Assembly (NCBI RefSeq): GCF_000725385.1
Contig: NZ_CP008884.1
Span: 1,674,001-1,738,000, forward strand
Direction of reading: 5' to 3'
From: Dyella japonica A8
GTDB taxonomy: Bacteria; Pseudomonadota; Gammaproteobacteria; Xanthomonadales; Rhodanobacteraceae
Length of the DNA stretch: 64,000 bases
How positions within the stretch are numbered: the first letter of the stretch is position 1; each line of letters starts with the position of its first letter. The position numbers and the translations under genes are program-made. Shown piece by piece: positions 21,125 through 30,721 of the stretch. Under the pieces are notes generated by a model. The model saw nothing but the letters and a program-made list of their open reading frames with translations, was not told where the DNA came from and ran no database searches.

Positions 21125-22561
21125 TCAGCTCGCCTCGCGCCACGCCGCGGCAGGTTGCTTCTGCGGGCAGGAGTGGCGCTCCAGCATCGGCATGCGCGGC
21201 AGGTCGAACCAGAAGGTGCTGCCACGCCCCGGTTCCGAACGCAGCCCGATACGGGTGCCCAGCAGGCGCGCCAGGCGTTCGGCAATGGCCAGGCCGAGGC
21301 CGTAGCCACCGCGCCGCTCGCTTTCCCCGCCCTGCAACTGCACGAACTCTTCGAAAATGCGTTGCTGATGGATCACGGCGATGCCCGGACCGTTGTCGCG
21401 CACTTCAATGCGGATGGACTGGCCGCGACGGCGTGCCGCGATGAGCACGCGTCCTTCGGGCGCATTGGCAATGGCGTTGCTGGCCAGTTGATAGAGCAGG
21501 CTGGCCGCCACATCGGCGTCGCCGTGCAACTGGTGCTGGCTGCCTCGCCAGGCCAGTGTGACGCGGTGCTGCGCGGCCTCGTGGTTGAGCGAGGTGCGAT
21601 CACGCATGAACAGTTCTGCGGCGGTGAAGCCGATGGGCTTCACGGCGATCACGCCGGCGTCGAGGCGGGAGATCTCCAGCAGCGCATCCAGCAGGCGGGT
21701 CATCGACGCGATGCTGTGGCGCATCTGCTGGAACAGCGATTGCTGCTCGTTGCTGACGTTCTGGTCCAGGCCAGCCGCAAACAGTTCCAGCGCCTGCAGC
21801 GGCTGCCGGAAGTGGTGGCTGACCAGGGCAATGAACTGCGATTTGCTGCGCGTCGCCGCCTGGCTCTGGCGCAGGCGATCCAAGGCCTCGACGGCGTTGT
21901 CGTGCTGCATCGCACTCCAGTCGCGTCGCTGCTCTTCGTGCAGCTCGGAGAGGCGCTGCAGGGTTTTGCGCACTTCGATGAACTCGGCGCTGGCAGGGGT
22001 GTTGTCCAGCTGCGGATGCCGCCCATTCACCAGCTCATGCACCGCATAGCGCACCTGCGACAGCGGTTCGAGCACGCGATGGCGAATGGATACGCGGGCG
22101 AGCCACGCAAGCACCAGCACCCCGGCCACGCACAGCGCCCCCAGCAGCCAGACCATGGCCTGCGCCTGCCGCAGCGGGCGCGTGTCCACCTGCATGCTTA
22201 CCCAGGACGTGGCAGTGCCGTGGGGCCTTACCTCGCTGCGGTAGGTGGTGCCGTCGCTGGACGAGGGCTTGCCGCTGCTCCACAGGGTGCCGTCGGCGCC
22301 ATGCCATTCCACGCGCACCACCCGGTCGGCCTGGCCTTCCTGCAGGGTGCGGTCGAGGGCGATCTGGGGCGACAGTTCGCCGGGCACGTCGAGCTCGCCG
22401 GCCAGCCGCGCCAACCGCAGGCTGGCGGTGGAGTCCACGCGTTCGGCCAGGGCATGGCTCTGCTGCACGCACAGCGCCAGGATCAAAGCCACGGCGGCGA
22501 TGGTGCTTGGCAAAACCACATCGATGAACAGGCGGGGCAGCAGTTGCGCGCGCGGCTCCAT
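21125..22561 (-). CDS. Membrane sensor histidine kinase
   Basis: This 478-residue kinase has two transmembrane segments (about residues 13-33 and 136-156) that enclose a periplasmic sensor region of about 100 residues, a HAMP-like region, a short coiled coil, a HisKA domain with His249 in SHHFRQPLQAL, and an ATP-binding HATPase domain (N box LASNAIANAP, DNGPGI, GYGLGLAIAERL). It has no receiver domain, so it needs a partner regulator; the nearest is the NarL-type protein at 24695-25378. It shares the unusual RQPL phosphorylation motif with the hybrid kinase at 27975-29873. The signal is unknown. Confidence 0.9.
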   Translation of the reverse strand: MEPRAQLLPRLFIDVVLPSTIAAVALILALCVQQSHALAERVDSTASLRLARLAGELDVPGELSPQIALDRTLQEGQADRVVRVEWHGADGTLWSSGKPSSSDGTTYRSEVRPHGTATSWVSMQVDTRPLRQAQAMVWLLGALCVAGVLVLAWLARVSIRHRVLEPLSQVRYAVHELVNGRHPQLDNTPASAEFIEVRKTLQRLSELHEEQRRDWSAMQHDNAVEALDRLRQSQAATRSKSQFIALVSHHFRQPLQALELFAAGLDQNVSNEQQSLFQQMRHSIASMTRLLDALLEISRLDAGVIAVKPIGFTAAELFMRDRTSLNHEAAQHRVTLAWRGSQHQLHGDADVAASLLYQLASNAIANAPEGRVLIAARRRGQSIRIEVRDNGPGIAVIHQQRIFEEFVQLQGGESERRGGYGLGLAIAERLARLLGTRIGLRSEPGRGSTFWFDLPRMPMLERHSCPQKQPAAAWREAS

Positions 22562-23557: not shown

Positions 23558-24619
23558 TCAGGGAGTGCTGGGCGCCATCAGCTGGCGCACCAGCGCTTCG
23601 TGCTCGGCGTCGATCTTCTTGAGCCGCGTCTGCATGGCGGCATCGCTGACCCATTGCGCGCTGTAGGCGCGGCGGCGGTCCAGGTTGAACTCGATGTCGG
23701 CGAAGGGTACCAGGGCCTCGTTGCCAGCGGGGGCAAAGCCGCTGATGTCGTGGATCAGGCGCAGCTTGGCCAGTTCGGCCTGGGCGTTCCTGCCCTTCGC
23801 ATACGACGTCAGCGCCGCGGCCACGCGCTGCCGCAGCTCGGCCGGAAGGTCCGTGCGGATCACCACCACGGCATGCGGAATCAGGCTGGAGGTCCACAGC
23901 ACGCGCAGGCGCGCGTACTGGTCGGGAAAGCGCACCGCGAACCGTTCCAGGTCGGCGGTGTTGTTGGTGGCGATGTCCACCTCGTTGTTGGCCACGGCCA
24001 GCGCATTGTTCTGGTGGTTGTCGACCGCGACCGTGGCGAAGAAGGTGTCCGAATCCAGCCGGCGGTTGGCGAACACCTGGGTTTCGGGGACCAGATAGCC
24101 CGACACCGACAACACCTCGCCGCGTCCGTAGCGCAGCTTGCCCGGCTGTCTGAAGAGGTCGTCTAGGTGCTGCAGGGGCGAGTCCTTGACCACGATCAGC
24201 ACGGAGTAATACCCGCGTGAGCCGTTGGTGCGCGTGAGCTGCGCGATCACCTGCATGCGGTCGTGCACGACCGCATCCAGCGCCAGCCGGCCGGAGACGA
24301 AGGCGAAGTCGACCCGCTCCTCGGCCATGGCCTGCCCCAGGCCCTCATAGGTGCTCACCGACAGGCTGTGGACGGGCAAGTGCAGCGTGCGGCTCAGGTC
24401 GTCGAGCATCGGGCGCCAGGCGGCGAGCGATTCGGACGGGCCACCCATGGGCAGAATGCCGAAGGTCAGGGCATTGATATGCCCGCTGTCCTGCGCCGGA
24501 CCGGCCCATGCCGTGGGTGCGGCGGGCAGGGCAAGCAGGAGCAGCGCCGCCATCAGCGCTGGGATGAAGCCTCCAGGACGAGCCTTCCGGCGAGTCCTGG
24601 CGATCCTTTCTTTCGACAC
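23558..24619 (-). CDS. PhnD-like phosphate/phosphonate-type binding protein
   Basis: This 353-residue exported protein of the PhnD/PtxB periplasmic binding family has an N-terminal signal segment (about residues 18-40, ending AWAG), the first-lobe sequence LTFGILPMGGPSESLAAWRPMLDDLSRTL, then VDFAFVSGRLALDA and NHQNNALAVANNEVDIATNNTADLERF. No permease or ATPase gene is near, so transport is unlikely to be its main job. It lies 75 bases downstream of, and on the same strand as, a NarL-type regulator, so it may feed ligand sensing to the kinases here. That role is an inference. Confidence 0.8.
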   Translation of the reverse strand: MSKERIARTRRKARPGGFIPALMAALLLLALPAAPTAWAGPAQDSGHINALTFGILPMGGPSESLAAWRPMLDDLSRTLHLPVHSLSVSTYEGLGQAMAEERVDFAFVSGRLALDAVVHDRMQVIAQLTRTNGSRGYYSVLIVVKDSPLQHLDDLFRQPGKLRYGRGEVLSVSGYLVPETQVFANRRLDSDTFFATVAVDNHQNNALAVANNEVDIATNNTADLERFAVRFPDQYARLRVLWTSSLIPHAVVVIRTDLPAELRQRVAAALTSYAKGRNAQAELAKLRLIHDISGFAPAGNEALVPFADIEFNLDRRRAYSAQWVSDAAMQTRLKKIDAEHEALVRQLMAPSTP

Positions 24620-24694: not shown

Positions 24695-25378
24695 TCAGAG
24701 ACCGCTGATGCGACGCGAAGCCACCACGGCCTCGACCCGGTTGCGTACGTTGAGCGCGCGGAAGATGGCGGCCAGATGGATCTTCACCGTGCCTTCGCTG
24801 ATCCCCAGGTCGCGGGCAATCAGTTTGTTCGGCTTGCCCTGCGACAGCAGGCGCAGGACATCGATCTGCCGTTCGGTAAGCAGCTTGCGCAGGCGCTCTT
24901 CCAGTGAGTCGGCGGTGTTCGGCGGCGGCTGCGTGGCGGCCGACGGCGCCGGCGTGGCGGCGGCGCCATCCGTGCGTTCCTGCAGCAACAGCGGCGGCAC
25001 ATAAATGCCGCCCGACAGCACCAGGCGCACGGCGGACAGCATGACGTCGGGCGAATAAGCCTTCGGGATGAAACCCTGCACGCCCATGGCCAACAGGCTC
25101 TTCATGAGCGTGGCGTCTTCGGAACCCGACAGCACCATCACGGGAACGTGCGGCAGATGTTCGATGACCTCGGCCAGATGCTCGCTGCCATGCACTCCCG
25201 GCATGGCCAGGTCGATAAGCGCCAGGGACAGCGACGGTGCCTCCGGCGCATGGATCGCCTCGCGAAGCTCCGCCATGTCCATGGCAGTGACAAAATCCGT
25301 GGCCGGCCCAAGTTCGGCCAGCTTCAGCTTGACACCCTCGACGATGAGCCGATGGTCGTCCGCGATCAATATGCGCAT
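24695..25378 (-). CDS. NarL/FixJ-type response regulator
   Basis: From the ATG at 25378 (MRILIADDH, preceded by GGGGA) this has 227 residues; an ATG four codons upstream is possible. It has a receiver domain with the acidic pair Asp7-Asp8, phosphoacceptor Asp56 in ALIDLAMPG, and Lys in PKAYSP. An Ala/Pro-rich linker (about 140-160) follows, then a LuxR helix-turn-helix (LTERQIDVLRLLSQGKPNKLIARDLGISEGTVKIHL). Likely partners are the kinases at 21125 and 27975. The motif at 25481-25501 is 103 bases upstream. The PhnD-like gene follows on the same strand. Confidence 0.92.
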   Translation of the reverse strand: MRILIADDHRLIVEGVKLKLAELGPATDFVTAMDMAELREAIHAPEAPSLSLALIDLAMPGVHGSEHLAEVIEHLPHVPVMVLSGSEDATLMKSLLAMGVQGFIPKAYSPDVMLSAVRLVLSGGIYVPPLLLQERTDGAAATPAPSAATQPPPNTADSLEERLRKLLTERQIDVLRLLSQGKPNKLIARDLGISEGTVKIHLAAIFRALNVRNRVEAVVASRRISGL

Positions 25379-25921
25379 TTCGTTCCCCATGGCGTCAGCG
25401 GCACTCCCATCGCCGCGCATCCGCCTGCGCAACATAGCCCCAGCCTGTGTGCGCGGCAACCTCAAAGCGCGTACGAACGGCATAGTCTCAACGGGGTATG
25501 GCCGCCCCGGGGCACCGGCCGTGAAAATCCGCCCACTGCAACAGGGGAGTCACTCAGGTGCCGCGCTTCGAGGGAAGCGATGGCGACTCGGGCCGGGCAA
25601 ACCTTCGACATGGCCCACGCCGATCAACGAGCCCGACACCTGCATGAAAGCCACGCGTAGCGTCATCGGCCCGGCCGGGCATGAGGGCTGCCCCGCGCTC
25701 CTGCGAGCCGGCGGTGCCGGCAAGGCAGCGGGCGTGACGAGGGCGTTGACGGCCTTGCCTTTGCGGCCCAGCCCCCCAGTCGCCGTGGGGCGGATGCCGG
25801 TTTTCCGGCGCGGAGTCTCACCACGGGCAGGCGGTGGTCGGCACGAAGGCATCTATCGTCGTAGACTTCGGCGCGCGTCCCCTGCAGGCGCGGCACGTTC
25901 CTGCGGGGGCTATGGAGCAAC
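25379..25921. other. Long intergenic region before the DotU fusion gene
   Basis: 543 bases between divergent genes. Open frames exist on both strands, but none has a recognisable product or a ribosome-binding site. It must contain the regulator's promoter and probably that of the DotU fusion gene. Apart from the shared motif at 25481-25501, I see nothing recognisable. Confidence 0.5.
25481..25501. promoter_or_regulatory. Motif shared with the kinase region, copy 2
   Basis: Second copy of CATAGT-N3-AACGG-N2-TATGG, ending 103 bases upstream of the regulator's start codon. Relative to the two minus-strand genes (kinase and regulator), both copies have the same orientation. Compatible with autoregulation of this signalling module, but unproven. 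Confidence 0.4.
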
Positions 25922-27685
25922 ATGCAACGGGCTCTGACGGCTATCGATGCCATGCGGCTGCTGGAATGTTTCGCCCCTTTGTTCGCCTACGGCTTGCTGA
26001 TCGACGAGCAGGCGGCAACCCAGAACCTCCCCGACGACGAATGGCCGTCCATCCACGCGCGCGCGCTCGCGCTGGTGGAGCAGGGGCGTGGTGCCGCGTT
26101 CGCGCTGGGCAAGCCGCTGGCGGAGGTGGAGCTGGCGGCATTCGCGGCGGTTGCCTGGCTCGACGAGGTGGCGATGCGGTGCGGCGGCTGGGGCCATCGG
26201 GTCAGTTCGTTGCAGCAGACGCTGTTCCGCACCGGCAGTGCCGCCACGGAGTTCTTCGACCAGCTCGGCCGGCTCGGCAACAACGAGGAAGAAGTCCGCG
26301 AAGTGTTCAGCATGGCACTGCTGCTCGGCTTCTCCGGCCAGTACTACTACGAGCAGGGCGATAGCGGCGAGCTGGGGCGCATCAAGGCGCTGTACTGCCC
26401 GGCAGGCACGACGGCACAGGCCGTGCTGCAGTCGCTGCAGCGCGAGTCCGTGACGCCGCAACCCTATATGACGCCCGGGTCGCCGGTGCTGCGCCTGCCG
26501 GCGACGTGGGTGGGGCGCCGCCTGGCGCAGCTGGTCGCCGCCGTGGTGGTGGTGCTGGTGTTCGTCGCCTTCGTGGCACCGGTCTTCAGTCAGGCAGTGT
26601 CCGAGCAGGCATGGTTCGTGGGCGGCATCGTAGTGGCCGTGCTGGGGCTGCTTGGCTGGACGGGCGTGCTCGCCTGGCAGTCGCTGGTGATGATGCGCGC
26701 ACACACGCGTGTGGCGGACAGTACCGAGGCCGGCTACGGCATCGGCAGTTTTTCCGCCGTGGTGACGGACGCCGCCCGCCGCCTGCGTGGCGCCTTGCTC
26801 CATCCCTTCCGCCGGCGTGGCGAATGGCGACAGCTGTCCCGCCATCCCTGGCTGCTGTTTGTGGGCGACAGCGCGGCCGATGTGCGCTCCCTGCTCCAGG
26901 CTGCCGTGGTTTCGCCCCATGCGCGGGAGCTGTCCCGCGCCAGCGATACACCCTGGCATTGGTGGGTGTTCCGCTCGTTGGTGGCGATCGAGCCCGGTCC
27001 GCGCCTCTCGCATCCGCACGCCACCATCGGCGAGGGCGATGCGCCGTGGACGAAAGCCTTGTCCCTGCTGGCCAGGGAGCGTCGCAAGCTTCCGCTCGAT
27101 GGGCTGGTGGTCTGTATGGCGGCGCAGAGCCTGCGCGAGGCGGAGGGGGCAGTCGCCTCCCATGCCGATCGCCTGCACCGGCTGGCCGACGAAGCGACAC
27201 GCCTCCTGCAGTTGCAGCTGCCGGTTTACGTGGTGGTGACCGGGCTGGAAGCCTTGCCGGGCCACGGTGCCTTCCGCGCCGCGCTGCCCTCGTCGGTGTT
27301 TCGTCGCGTGCTGGGATGGCGCCACGCGAACCCGGTACGCGACGGCATGCTGGATGGACGTATGGACGTCCATGCCGACATGGTGTCCGGTCGCCTGATT
27401 TCCGCTGCGCTCGCCGTGCTGGCGGTGGAGCGCGATCCGCACCGGCGTCGCGAGGCATTTGCCTTTCTCCAGGCGCTGCAGGGTTTGCAGCGTGGGCTGC
27501 ACACGTTCGTGGAACGGCTCCAGGCCAACGACGCCGGTGGCGAGCATCGCCTGTACTGGCAGGGGCTGTATGTCACGGGCGGCTCGCGCGGCGAGGCGCC
27601 GGGCGGCGACTTCGTCGACGATCTTTTCCATCGCTTCCTGCCCGCCGACCGGGTGCTCGCACGTCGCGTGGCGCCCAAGGGTTAA
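25922..27685 (+). CDS. DotU/TssL - degenerate TssM (IcmF) fusion protein
   Basis: 587 residues with two parts. Residues 1 to about 222 are a DotU/TssL-type cytoplasmic domain and helix (MRLLECFAPLFAYGLLID, AAVAWLDEVAMRCGGW, GFSGQYYYEQGD; helix 201-222). After a second helix (232-257), residues 265-587 match the cytoplasmic part of TssM/IcmF: HPWLLFVGDSAADVRSLLQ stands where TssM has its P-loop, WHWWVFRSLVAIEPGPR where it has WWFTDEAVLIDTAGR, and VYVVVTGLEALPG where it has VYVLFTKCDL. It ends at LYWQGLYVTGG...DLFHRFLPADRVL, which matches the end of the TssM cytoplasmic region. All nucleotide-binding motifs are lost and the large periplasmic part is absent. No other baseplate or membrane-complex genes are adjacent. 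Possible roles are an alternative secretion anchor, a decoy, or a relic. Confidence 0.8.
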   Translation: MQRALTAIDAMRLLECFAPLFAYGLLIDEQAATQNLPDDEWPSIHARALALVEQGRGAAFALGKPLAEVELAAFAAVAWLDEVAMRCGGWGHRVSSLQQTLFRTGSAATEFFDQLGRLGNNEEEVREVFSMALLLGFSGQYYYEQGDSGELGRIKALYCPAGTTAQAVLQSLQRESVTPQPYMTPGSPVLRLPATWVGRRLAQLVAAVVVVLVFVAFVAPVFSQAVSEQAWFVGGIVVAVLGLLGWTGVLAWQSLVMMRAHTRVADSTEAGYGIGSFSAVVTDAARRLRGALLHPFRRRGEWRQLSRHPWLLFVGDSAADVRSLLQAAVVSPHARELSRASDTPWHWWVFRSLVAIEPGPRLSHPHATIGEGDAPWTKALSLLARERRKLPLDGLVVCMAAQSLREAEGAVASHADRLHRLADEATRLLQLQLPVYVVVTGLEALPGHGAFRAALPSSVFRRVLGWRHANPVRDGMLDGRMDVHADMVSGRLISAALAVLAVERDPHRRREAFAFLQALQGLQRGLHTFVERLQANDAGGEHRLYWQGLYVTGGSRGEAPGGDFVDDLFHRFLPADRVLARRVAPKG

Positions 27686-27720
27686 GAGCGGCTGACAAAA
27701 CCCTGTGATGTTTCAATATC

Positions 27721-27866
27721 GTCATTCCCGCGAAAGCGGGAGGCGCTGTATCAACAGCCGAATGGCTGGTCATCCAGCGCCTTTTAAACGCCATCGAAAG
27801 CTGAAAGTCACTGGATGACCAGCCGTTCGGCTGTTGAAAGACGCCTCCCGCTTTCGCGGGAATGAC
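27721..27866. repeat. Large nested palindrome (REP-like)
   Basis: The left arm 27721-27777 and right arm 27811-27866 are near-perfect reverse complements (57 and 56 bases) around a 33-base spacer. Each arm itself contains two small hairpins: GTCATTCCCGCGAAAGCGGGA, and CAACAGCCGAATGGCTG. It lies between convergent genes. A right arm of the same type, without its partner, is present at 35605-35660. Three short GATGAGGGGG repeats follow to 27909. Confidence 0.85.
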
Positions 27867-27974
27867 GATGAGGGGGGCGATGAGGGGGAATGACGATGAG
27901 GGGGAATGAGCGTTCAAGCAAGATCGTGAACAGGCTCTAAGCCGCTCTAAGTCCGCCTCTCGTCGCTGTGGTGT

Positions 27975-29873
27975 TCAGGCGGCGGCGCGCGATGCGCTCC
28001 ACGCGGCCATCAAGGCTTCCCGCAGCTGTTCCGGCGATACGGGCTTGTAGAGCACGGGTATCCGCGCGGCCATGATTTCGCGCAGCCTGTCGCTGCGGGT
28101 TTCGCCCGTGATGAGCAGGCGCGAGAACGGGGGAATGCCGTCGATCTGGTAGTGGGCGTCCAGCGCGGCCAGCACGTCGAGGCCGCTTTCGCCGTCGCGC
28201 AGGCGCAGGTCGGAGATCACGATATCCGGCGGCACGTTCCATTCCTCCGCCGCCTGCAGCGCCTGCACGCGGTCCTCGGCGACGGCCACCTCGCAGCCCC
28301 AGCTCGCCAGCAGGTAACGGATGCCGGACAAGATGGCCGGCTCGTCGTCGATCACCAGCACGCGCATGCCAGAGACGTCGGGCGACGGTTCATGGCCACC
28401 GGCCGCCGGCAGCTGCTGCGCGGGCACTTCGGGCAGGTGGAAGGTGAATACGCTGCCATGCCCCGGCTTCGATTTCAGTTGCACCCGCGTGTCGAGCAGT
28501 TCGGCCAGGCGCTGTACGGTGGCAAGGCCAAGGCCGAGGCCGCGACGGCGTCCCGCGTCGTGCTCGTTGCTGTGGCATTCCACGCGGTAGAACTCGTCGA
28601 ACACGCGCACCTGGTGTTCCGGCGCGATGCCGCTGCCGGTATCCCACACGTCCACGCGCACGGTGCCGTCCTCGCGGCGGCGCGCCACGACCAGTACGCC
28701 GCCGCGACTGGTATAGCGCAGCGCGTTGCTCACCAGGTTGTTGAGGATGCGCGAAAGCATCGTGCGGTCGCTGCGCACCCACAGGTGGGTGGCGCGCATG
28801 ATCAGGCGCAGGCCATGCTGCTCGGCGATCATGCGGAAGTTGCGGCTTACTTCCTGGAACACATGGTCGAGCGGGAATTCCGCGATCTCGATCTGCATGG
28901 CGCCGGTTTCCAGACGCGACAGGTCGAGCAGCTCGCTGAAGAGATGGTCCAGTGCCTCCACGCATTCCTGGATGTGCGCGATGCGGTCCAGCCGGATCGG
29001 GTCGCGCTCGTCCTCGGCCAGCGCCGAGGAGAACAGGGTCAACGCATACAGCGGCTGGCGCAGGTCGTGCGATGCGGCGGCGAGAAAGCGTGCCTTGGCG
29101 ACGCTGGCGGCTTCGAGCGCAGCGTTCTTGCGTGCCAGTTCCACGGTGGCGTGCTCGATCTCGCGCTCCATGCCGCGTTGCACGTCGAACAGCGCCATGG
29201 CCGCGCTGTTGAAGCCGCGTTGCAGTTCGCCGATCTCGGTCTGGTCGGTGACCTCCACCTCGACGCGGCGATCACCGCGGCCCAGCTGATGCACGGCGTC
29301 GACGAGGCGGCGCAGCGGGGCGCTGATCCAGCGGGCTGCCTGCCAGGCGATGATCGCCGCCAGTATCAGGCTGATCGCCAGGGCAATCAGCGCGTGCCGG
29401 AGGCTGGCCTGCTGCATGGCGATGGCATCGCGCAGGCTCACGTCGATCACCACCGAGCCGAGCACCGGCAGGCCGGGGCGCTCCGTGTCCACCACGTCGC
29501 GCACCACGGTCAGGCTTTCGTTGTTGTCGGCGCCGCTGCGACCCAGGCTGTCCGCCAGGATCTCGCCGTCGGCGGCGCGGATCTGCACGCGGGCGACATG
29601 GGGCAGGTCACCGATGGATTCGGCGATGCGCACCAGCTCGCGCCGTTGCATGTCGCGCAGCGGCGCGGCCGTTACCGATGCCGCCTGGGTGGCAATGGCA
29701 TCGGCCGTGTTCTGCTCCATGCTGCGCAGGGTCATCAGCTGCTGCGGCGCGAGCATGGCGACCAGCAGCGTGGCCGTCACCAGGGTGGGCACGAGGGTCA
29801 CCAGCGCAAGCCGCTGCATCAGCGACGTGCGACGCCACCATTGCACCGTCCGCGAGTTGGCCCCTGTACCCAT
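27975..29873 (-). CDS. Hybrid sensor histidine kinase/response regulator
   Basis: The start at 29873 (MGTGANSRTVQWW, preceded by AAGGGG) gives 632 residues. It has two transmembrane helices (about 22-43 and 159-178) with a periplasmic sensor region between, a HAMP domain (179-232), a coiled coil, HisKA with His269 in SHDLRQPLYAL, HATPase (NNLVSNALRYTS, DTGSGIAPEH, GLGLGLATVQRL), and a C-terminal receiver with Asp555 in VISDLRLRDG and Lys610 in LYKPVSP. The RQPL motif links it to the kinase at 21125. It could pass phosphate to the NarL-type regulator, as such hybrid kinases often do; this pairing is inferred. Confidence 0.93.
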   Translation of the reverse strand: MGTGANSRTVQWWRRTSLMQRLALVTLVPTLVTATLLVAMLAPQQLMTLRSMEQNTADAIATQAASVTAAPLRDMQRRELVRIAESIGDLPHVARVQIRAADGEILADSLGRSGADNNESLTVVRDVVDTERPGLPVLGSVVIDVSLRDAIAMQQASLRHALIALAISLILAAIIAWQAARWISAPLRRLVDAVHQLGRGDRRVEVEVTDQTEIGELQRGFNSAAMALFDVQRGMEREIEHATVELARKNAALEAASVAKARFLAAASHDLRQPLYALTLFSSALAEDERDPIRLDRIAHIQECVEALDHLFSELLDLSRLETGAMQIEIAEFPLDHVFQEVSRNFRMIAEQHGLRLIMRATHLWVRSDRTMLSRILNNLVSNALRYTSRGGVLVVARRREDGTVRVDVWDTGSGIAPEHQVRVFDEFYRVECHSNEHDAGRRRGLGLGLATVQRLAELLDTRVQLKSKPGHGSVFTFHLPEVPAQQLPAAGGHEPSPDVSGMRVLVIDDEPAILSGIRYLLASWGCEVAVAEDRVQALQAAEEWNVPPDIVISDLRLRDGESGLDVLAALDAHYQIDGIPPFSRLLITGETRSDRLREIMAARIPVLYKPVSPEQLREALMAAWSASRAAA

Positions 29874-29983
29874 CGGATCCCCTTGCACGCGTGAAGCGTC
29901 AGGCGGAATCAGCCTAGCGCGATTTTTCAGATGAGACAGCAGGCCGACTGGTGTAGCCGCGTTGGCCAAGGTGGCCGCGGAAT

Positions 29984-30721
29984 TCAATCCTGGCGCGGGT
30001 TTGCCTCGTTGGCCATGACGGCCTGGTGACGACGACGGGTAAACCGTTCGACCAATAGCGGCAGCAGGGCCAGCACGGCAATGGCGGTGAGGGGCATCCA
30101 GATGCCTCGTTGCATCAGCAGGCCCGGCCCGAACTGGCCGTGGCTCTTGGCCAGGGCTTCGCCCAGGCCGGCGCCGATCGATGTCTCGAACACCAGGGAG
30201 ACGGTTCCGCCCAGCCAGCTGGCGCCCAGGAACAGCCACAGCGGGCAGCGCAGCCACGCCAGCGCGACCGTGACCAGGCCGAACGGCGCCACCGGCACAA
30301 AGCGCAGGAACATGGTGTAGGCCACAGGGTGCCGCTCGAACCCGTGATGCAGCTTGTCGACCAGGGCAGGCGGATGCTTGCTGCCGGCGCCGAAGGCATA
30401 ACGGCTGGCCAGGAACAGGATCAGCGTGCCCAGGGTCAGGCCGATGGACGAGTAGATGGTGCCTTCCACCGCACCGAAGGCGAAGCCGCCGGCGATGATG
30501 ATGATCACCGTGCCCGGGATGCCCGTGGACATCGCCAGCGTGAGCAGCCCGATGTAGGTGATCCTGCTAAGCCAGGGGGCGGTATCGATGTCGGCGCGCA
30601 TCTGCGCCTGGTGCTGCACCAGCTGTTCCGGGTGCAGCCGGTCCATCAGGCCCGAGCTGAACAAGGCGATGCCGGCGATCACCAGCAGGATCAGCGGCAG
30701 GGCGGCGCGCAGGCGGCTCAA
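29984..30721 (-). CDS. VTT-domain (TVP38/TMEM64, DedA-like) membrane protein
   Basis: This multi-pass inner membrane protein of the VTT superfamily has a typical core: MSTGIPGTVIIIIAGGFAFG, then FLRFVPVAPFGLVTVALA, where the F-x-R-x2-P motif is the family signature. The best start is a TTG at 30721 that overlaps the stop of the upstream deaminase gene (TTGA) and gives 245 residues; the longer open frame upstream is the wrong-frame image of the deaminase. Members are thought to be lipid scramblases or transporters. The ligand is unknown. Confidence 0.82.
   Translation of the reverse strand: MSRLRAALPLILLVIAGIALFSSGLMDRLHPEQLVQHQAQMRADIDTAPWLSRITYIGLLTLAMSTGIPGTVIIIIAGGFAFGAVEGTIYSSIGLTLGTLILFLASRYAFGAGSKHPPALVDKLHHGFERHPVAYTMFLRFVPVAPFGLVTVALAWLRCPLWLFLGASWLGGTVSLVFETSIGAGLGEALAKSHGQFGPGLLMQRGIWMPLTAIAVLALLPLLVERFTRRRHQAVMANEANPRQD

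Follow-up and report, generated by a model that had tools for sequence, protein, structure and literature searches.

A TssL-TssM fusion gene in Dyella, probably left by the collapse of a type VI secretion cluster and kept for another role at the inner membrane

Introduction

The closest described relatives of the gene considered here are TssL (DotU) and TssM (IcmF) of type VI secretion systems (T6SSs), and two variants of TssM resemble it in particular respects. IcmF3 of Pseudomonas aeruginosa is likewise an IcmF/TssM without an identifiable Walker A motif; it belongs, however, to the T6SS locus H3, and no fusion to DotU is mentioned in the available portion of the report (PMC4589678). TssM1[1-807] of Citrobacter rodentium is likewise a truncated yet functional TssM, but according to the accessible text it arises by transcriptional frameshifting, still has much of the periplasmic region and acts with full-length TssM in a T6SS (PMC4256274). 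The gene in question lies in a stretch of 64,000 nucleotides from the genome of Dyella japonica A8 (NZ_CP008884.1, positions 1,674,001 to 1,738,000), to which, at its full length, I will refer as the window. It joins, within a single intact open reading frame (ORF), the cytosolic domain of DotU/TssL to the N-terminal part of TssM, consisting of a transmembrane (TM) hairpin and a cytosolic domain.

To my knowledge, the survivors of the loss of a T6SS cluster have seldom been traced. No description of a TssL-TssM fusion gene turned up in literature searches, and a review of T6SSs in the Xanthomonadales assigns those of Dyella to group 3 and, in the portion available, describes no such relic (PMC6653060). 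The reading that I consider probable is that the fusion was left by the collapse of a T6SS cluster and was kept for a T6SS-independent role at the inner membrane, most plausibly scaffolding. What makes the case instructive is that a single chromosomal slot may be seen empty, occupied by a full T6SS, or occupied by one selected fused gene kept throughout the genus.

Architecture of the Fusion

The fusion gene (25952..27685, + strand) encodes 577 amino acids (aa) from its likely start, or 587 if the count begins at 25922, as it does for the residue numbers used here. An earlier note, made from the sequence, had placed the start at 25922. The ATG at 25952 (Met11) appears more likely: 12 of 23 aligned fusions start exactly there, the extensions of the remainder are unlike one another, and residues are near-invariant from Met11 onward. 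The protein begins with the DotU/TssL cytosolic domain (residues 12-185; 25955..26476, +), followed by two predicted TM helices, visible as hydropathy peaks (about residues 203-221 and 232-254; 26528..26683, +), an arginine-rich segment of the form R..RG..LHPFRRRGxWR (residues 286-303; 26777..26830, +), and a TssM-type cytosolic domain (residues 307-570; 26840..27631, +).

The description of the gene as an orphan DotU-TssM fusion holds up well, both domains being present in 51 of the 56 homologues found in a first protein search. The organism, where named for these 51, is Dyella. A profile built from 49 of them (P0005 and P0008 were left out of the alignment) returned the same 56 proteins and nothing new from 8000 candidates scored.

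The halves can be traced by alignment to the separate TssL and TssM of a syntenic T6SS, described below. Residues 12-222 align with residues 3-210 of TssL at 47% identity, and residues 195-580 with residues 7-391 of TssM at 38% identity. The helices had been assigned to DotU, an assignment that has to be changed: the pair aligns with TM1 and TM2 of TssM, with an FVAP motif and a Trp before TM2, and is unlike the C-terminal TM anchor typical of TssL, which is absent from the fusion. Because the TM region follows TssM and not the TssL anchor, the joint may be placed at about residues 183-196. At the other end, the ORF stops just short of TM3 of TssM. As had been claimed, the large periplasmic domain is missing: TIGR03348 matches the fusion over positions 36-367 of its 1168 only, far below its cut-off, as compared to 105 bits for PF14331 against a cut-off of 25. 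By family features, then, the protein is a TssL in possessing the DotU cytosolic domain and a TssM in possessing the TM pair and IcmF-related domain, lacking the Walker A and TKxD motifs that are in any case not universal among TssM/IcmF proteins.

Three States of One Slot

A search of 233 genomes of the family found the gene present and open in all 20 Dyella genomes. In every one of the 20 loci (19 fetched and the window, with genes at the compared loci called by a simple caller) the fusion, on the + strand, stands between a response regulator and a histidine kinase, both on the - strand, and these are its direct neighbours, with no T6SS genes beside it. The left border of the slot is a NarL/LuxR-type response regulator (24695..25390, -), and syntenic with it is a gene for a PhnD-type substrate-binding protein (23558..24553, -). 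The right border is a hybrid histidine kinase with HAMP, HisKA, HATPase and receiver domains (27975..30257, -; start uncertain), likewise syntenic. The region from a kinase gene at 21125 through glnS is common to all 20 loci. A further flank, whose genes I take from domain and position to be ybgF, queE and queC, is present in 19, the exception being L051.

Six related genomes, four of group g22 (among them Rhodanobacter sp. L36) and two of group g8 ('Dyella silvatica' and 'Dyella tabacisoli'), score 352-368 bits with the fusion profile, as compared to about 200 bits for canonical TssM. In all six a T6SS cluster occupies the same slot, bordered at one end by the kinase and at the other by the regulator and the PhnD-type gene, and in window orientation the regulator (-), T6SS genes (+) and kinase (-) run just as they do at the fusion loci. 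Each cluster contains TraB/GumN, TssK, TssL (DotU plus DUF4384), TssM, TssA, TssB, TssC, Hcp and TssE; those of g8 carry four extra genes between TssA and TssB. A gene neighbouring one g8 cluster (L046:16723-19500) has an RHS-like look by eye, its protein running off the stretch. The class to which these clusters belong (L042-L047, L085, L086) can be recognized by a TssL consisting of DotU and DUF4384, a TssM that lacks the P-loop and scores below the TIGR03348 cut-off, and TraB/GumN at the head. A sample of 398 genomes of the order included 8 with close relatives of its TssM.

The regulator occurs in 37 genomes beyond the 26 placed so far, and the loci of the 15 strongest matches were examined, the 22 weaker ones being left out. 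At 14 of the 15 the slot is empty, the kinase adjoining the regulator across a gap of 68-201 bp. The remaining locus (L069:9286-11829, in G101) has two genes between kinase and regulator, encoding 545 and 164 aa, the first of which resembles by eye a cation/proton antiporter. The slot thus has three main states: empty, T6SS and fusion. Since G101 holds two different genes there, the slot may be a preferred site of insertion.

The spacing around the fusion varies. Its stop lies no more than 45 bp from the end of the kinase gene in 17 of the 20 loci. In the window the two are separated by a palindromic element some 150 bp long (27718-27869), whose outer arms of 28 nt are 100% complementary and whose inner arms of 34 nt are 91% complementary. 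Given the short distance in those 17 loci, the element looks like a recent insertion of the REP/MITE type. On the other side, the gap between regulator and fusion (25391-25921 in the window) spans 245-573 bp across the genus and contains conserved blocks beside the regulator, and eight near relatives share a block about 60-100 bp before the fusion start. A simple scan found no sigma-70-like promoter upstream of the fusion.

Selection on the Fusion

The earlier note judged from the clean end of the reading frame that the gene was not a product of random decay, and comparison across the genus bears this out. Ratios of nonsynonymous to synonymous substitution rates (dN/dS) were calculated by the method of Nei and Gojobori from pairs with dS between 0.05 and 1.5, a limit that removed 6 of the 190 fusion pairs. 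The median over the remaining 184 pairs is 0.27, and 15 neighbouring genes range from 0.06 to 0.25; these overall values are inflated by saturation, the median dS between Dyella fusions being about 1. By region the ratio is 0.24 for DotU, 0.34 for the TM pair and 0.28 for the TssM part. The clade of the window, with 8 genomes and 28 pairs, gives 0.122, inside the range of 0.061-0.164 shown by seven flanking genes. Differences at the three codon positions stand at 0.27, 0.20 and 0.48. Neutral simulation gave a mean of 4.3, 8.8 and 14.9 internal stops at 0.1, 0.25 and 0.5 changes per site, with 1, 0 and 0 of 300 runs, respectively, remaining free of stops. The fusion is not the product of random decay and is under purifying selection genus-wide.

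Degenerate Nucleotide Site and Predicted Fold

The position of the P-loop reads GDSAADVRS in the window (residues 315-323; 26864..26890, +), and the pattern GxxxxGK[ST] is found in none of the 49 aligned fusions. The position of TKxD reads TGLE (residues 440-443; 27239..27250, +). The four readable canonical TssMs all have GPPGSGK[ST] together with TKCD or TKSD; a further canonical row, from L040, proved to be an antisense reading frame and was left out of the count. Nucleotide binding by the fusion would therefore not be expected, in agreement with the earlier note. The same note raised the idea of a purpose-built scaffold, and for the dead site the relatives point elsewhere: all nine intact TssMs of the slot class that were compared already lack the P-loop (GDADAGVHG and similar), and TGLE, TGLD or SGLD stands in place of TKxD in TssMs of the class, so the degenerate site was inherited from the parent T6SS class.

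Other residues do distinguish the fusions. Seventeen are near-invariant in them and absent from the nine intact class TssMs, and eight of these fall within residues 289-303, in the Arg-rich segment. In the DotU half, 42 invariant residues are common to the fusions and 125 TssLs, and six are found in fusions only, of which four lie in the TssM-derived TM region and one (R12) is an alignment artefact.

The region from residue 265 onward, claimed to be TssM-like, is so by sequence, and a small-GTPase G-domain fold is predicted for the C-terminal domain. No solved cytosolic domain of TssM for comparison was among the 50 fold-search matches listed, which does not exclude that one exists.

T6SS in the Carriers

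If the fusion worked with a T6SS, one might look for that system in the genomes that carry it. The survey of the genus covered TssM, TssC, TssK and Hcp. TssM above the family cut-off is present in 6 of the 20 carriers, the window's genome among them, and TssC in the same six; TssK is found in five of these; and Hcp is found in seven, the six and one more. The additional Hcp is an orphan (G052:C12:28379-28765), TssC, TssK and canonical TssM not having been found in that Dyella genome. In the window's genome a distance of 1.5 Mb separates the fusion from the canonical TssL and TssM. Because 14 of the 20 carriers lack canonical TssM and TssC, and 15 lack TssK, a T6SS is improbable as the usual partner, and it is unlikely that the fusion mainly serves one.

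Genomes including those of D. silvae and D. humicola, where TssC, TssK and canonical TssM were not found, name the fusion a type VI secretion protein. Such a label should be read with caution.

Ancestry of the Fusion

The fusions form a single group with support of 100/100 in a tree of the DotU domain (65 rows) and 100/99 in a tree of the TssM part (33 rows). In the tree of the TssM N-terminal part, fusions and the slot T6SS class together are split from canonical TssM at 100/100. In the DotU tree the outgroup sits on a very long branch (8.5), the 18 rows labelled 'other' are a manual choice among the hits listed, and the branching within the class is left open. That the fusion derives from a T6SS cluster at the slot is well supported, resting more on position than on the shape of the trees, since the TssM tree does not join the fusions with the syntenic clusters.

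Discussion

The course of events may have been as follows. A T6SS cluster would once have stood between the histidine kinase and the response regulator and would have collapsed in the ancestor of Dyella. Loss of the 3' part of tssL, which encodes the TM anchor and the periplasmic DUF4384 region, together with the first residues of tssM, would have joined the two in frame; tssM would have been cut immediately before its third TM helix; and the remaining genes of the cluster, as seen in the six relatives, would have gone from the slot. The product would span the inner membrane with two TM helices and have both the DotU domain and the nucleotide-free, GTPase-like TssM domain in the cytosol. This topology is suggested by the sequence and by the known topologies of TssL and TssM: if the three-helix topology of TssM holds (PMC3213119, in the portion available), both domains should be cytosolic, because the fusion ends before TM3. 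A single chain would then contain the cytosolic portion of a T6SS membrane complex, its two domains presumably packing together as TssL and TssM do. It may serve at the membrane as a scaffold or adaptor to a cytosolic partner, with the Arg-rich segment, which follows a membrane-proximal linker, as candidate contact. A T6SS-independent function, most likely of this kind, seems to me the best account. That an exapted TssL-TssM cytosolic module performs such a job genus-wide, through a newly conserved Arg-rich contact segment, is on balance likely.

Several observations weigh against this reading. When all pairs are taken together, none of the neighbouring genes reaches the dN/dS of the fusion, and the corresponding regions of intact TssL and TssM from the six related T6SS loci are lower (0.09 and 0.11), so that the fusion looks to be under looser constraint than its intact counterparts, saturation inflating the contrast. 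The Arg-rich segment may be less novel than it appears, in that a basic run (LRKTRR) stands at the same place in canonical TssMs and two of its eight distinctive positions face gaps in the relatives. The structural model is middling (pLDDT 73), falling below 50 at residues 254-298, the Arg-rich segment being modelled with low confidence, and only one Foldseek match had an E value under 0.001. The tree of the TssM N-terminal part, in which long branches meet, places the fusions beside the whole class and not with the syntenic T6SSs, and a grouping of fusion with syntenic TssM was not recovered, though it was not rejected either (p-AU 0.159). Finally, no T6SS debris came to light at E 0.01 when the proteins of the six loci were compared by tblastn with the 20 upstream gaps and the 5 downstream gaps longer than 20 bp; in view of this, the collapse is deduced from synteny and homology and not from debris.

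Of the other explanations, one takes the location at face value, making the fusion a membrane scaffold that links the flanking kinase (27975) and regulator (24695), together with the PhnD-type binding protein (23558). It does lie between the two in all 20 Dyella genomes, and a T6SS earlier occupied the same place. The pair exists without it, however, at 14 of the 15 other loci, the fusion is on the strand opposite to both, and its position is explained by the T6SS insertion site, so this idea seems unlikely. The gene might instead be a functionless remnant, decaying so slowly that no inactivating mutation has become fixed so far. The disappearance of the other genes of the ancestral cluster, the locally high dN/dS and a long stem branch (0.9) are what one would expect of such a remnant. 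But a gene whose reading frame is intact in all 20 genomes, at a median dS of about 1, has escaped the roughly 9-15 stops per lineage expected from neutral simulation at 0.25-0.5 changes per site, the pattern of codon-position differences and a dN/dS in the window's clade like that of ordinary flanking genes both speak of constraint, and a conserved segment peculiar to fusions has arisen. I regard slow decay as distinctly improbable.

The remaining two explanations return the fusion to a secretion system. The earlier note proposed a regulator of the real complex, and one can imagine a decoy that binds TssK, TssL or TssM of the cell's own canonical T6SS and limits or primes its assembly. The window's genome has such a T6SS, and in the accessible text on C. 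rodentium the truncated TssM is required alongside the full-length form (PMC4256274). The dN/dS of the fusion is also lower in T6SS-positive genomes than in the others (0.117 vs 0.294), to which I give little weight, because the difference comes mostly from one clade and the flanking genes show the same trend. Set against a regulator are the carriers, most of which lack the canonical components, and the descent of the fusion from a different class of T6SS; its probability is slight. The DotU/IcmF pair also assists the type IVB secretion system of Legionella, and the fusion could in principle help a type IV system in a similar way. VirB10/TrbI (PF03743) was found, however, in 6 of 20 Dyella genomes, the window's own not among them, type IVB markers not having been searched for, and I consider this explanation very improbable indeed.

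If the fusion does have a T6SS-free job, the cytosolic module of TssL and TssM would be a self-standing scaffold, open to study without the rest of the machine, and its partner could be sought in strains that have no T6SS.

Relation to Known Systems

The nearest system is the T6SS found at the same slot. Its TssL and TssM resemble the halves of the fusion, flanks and orientation are the same, and its TssM is already without a P-loop. It differs in having a separate TssL (447-448 aa), with a DUF4384 periplasmic part, and a separate TssM (about 1150-1176 aa), with a full periplasmic part. It also carries TssK, TssA, TssB, TssC, Hcp and TssE, none of which accompany the fusion. As compared to TssL/DotU in general (PF09850; 3u66, 6y4r, 4v3i), the fusion is alike in the sequence and predicted fold of its cytosolic domain; it differs in having the TM pair of TssM in place of its own anchor, in being fused to TssM, and in that most of its carriers are without a T6SS. 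With TssM/IcmF (TIGR03348, PF14331) it shares TM1, TM2 and the cytosolic GTPase-like domain, and it departs from that family in going without TM3, the periplasmic domain and the P-loop.
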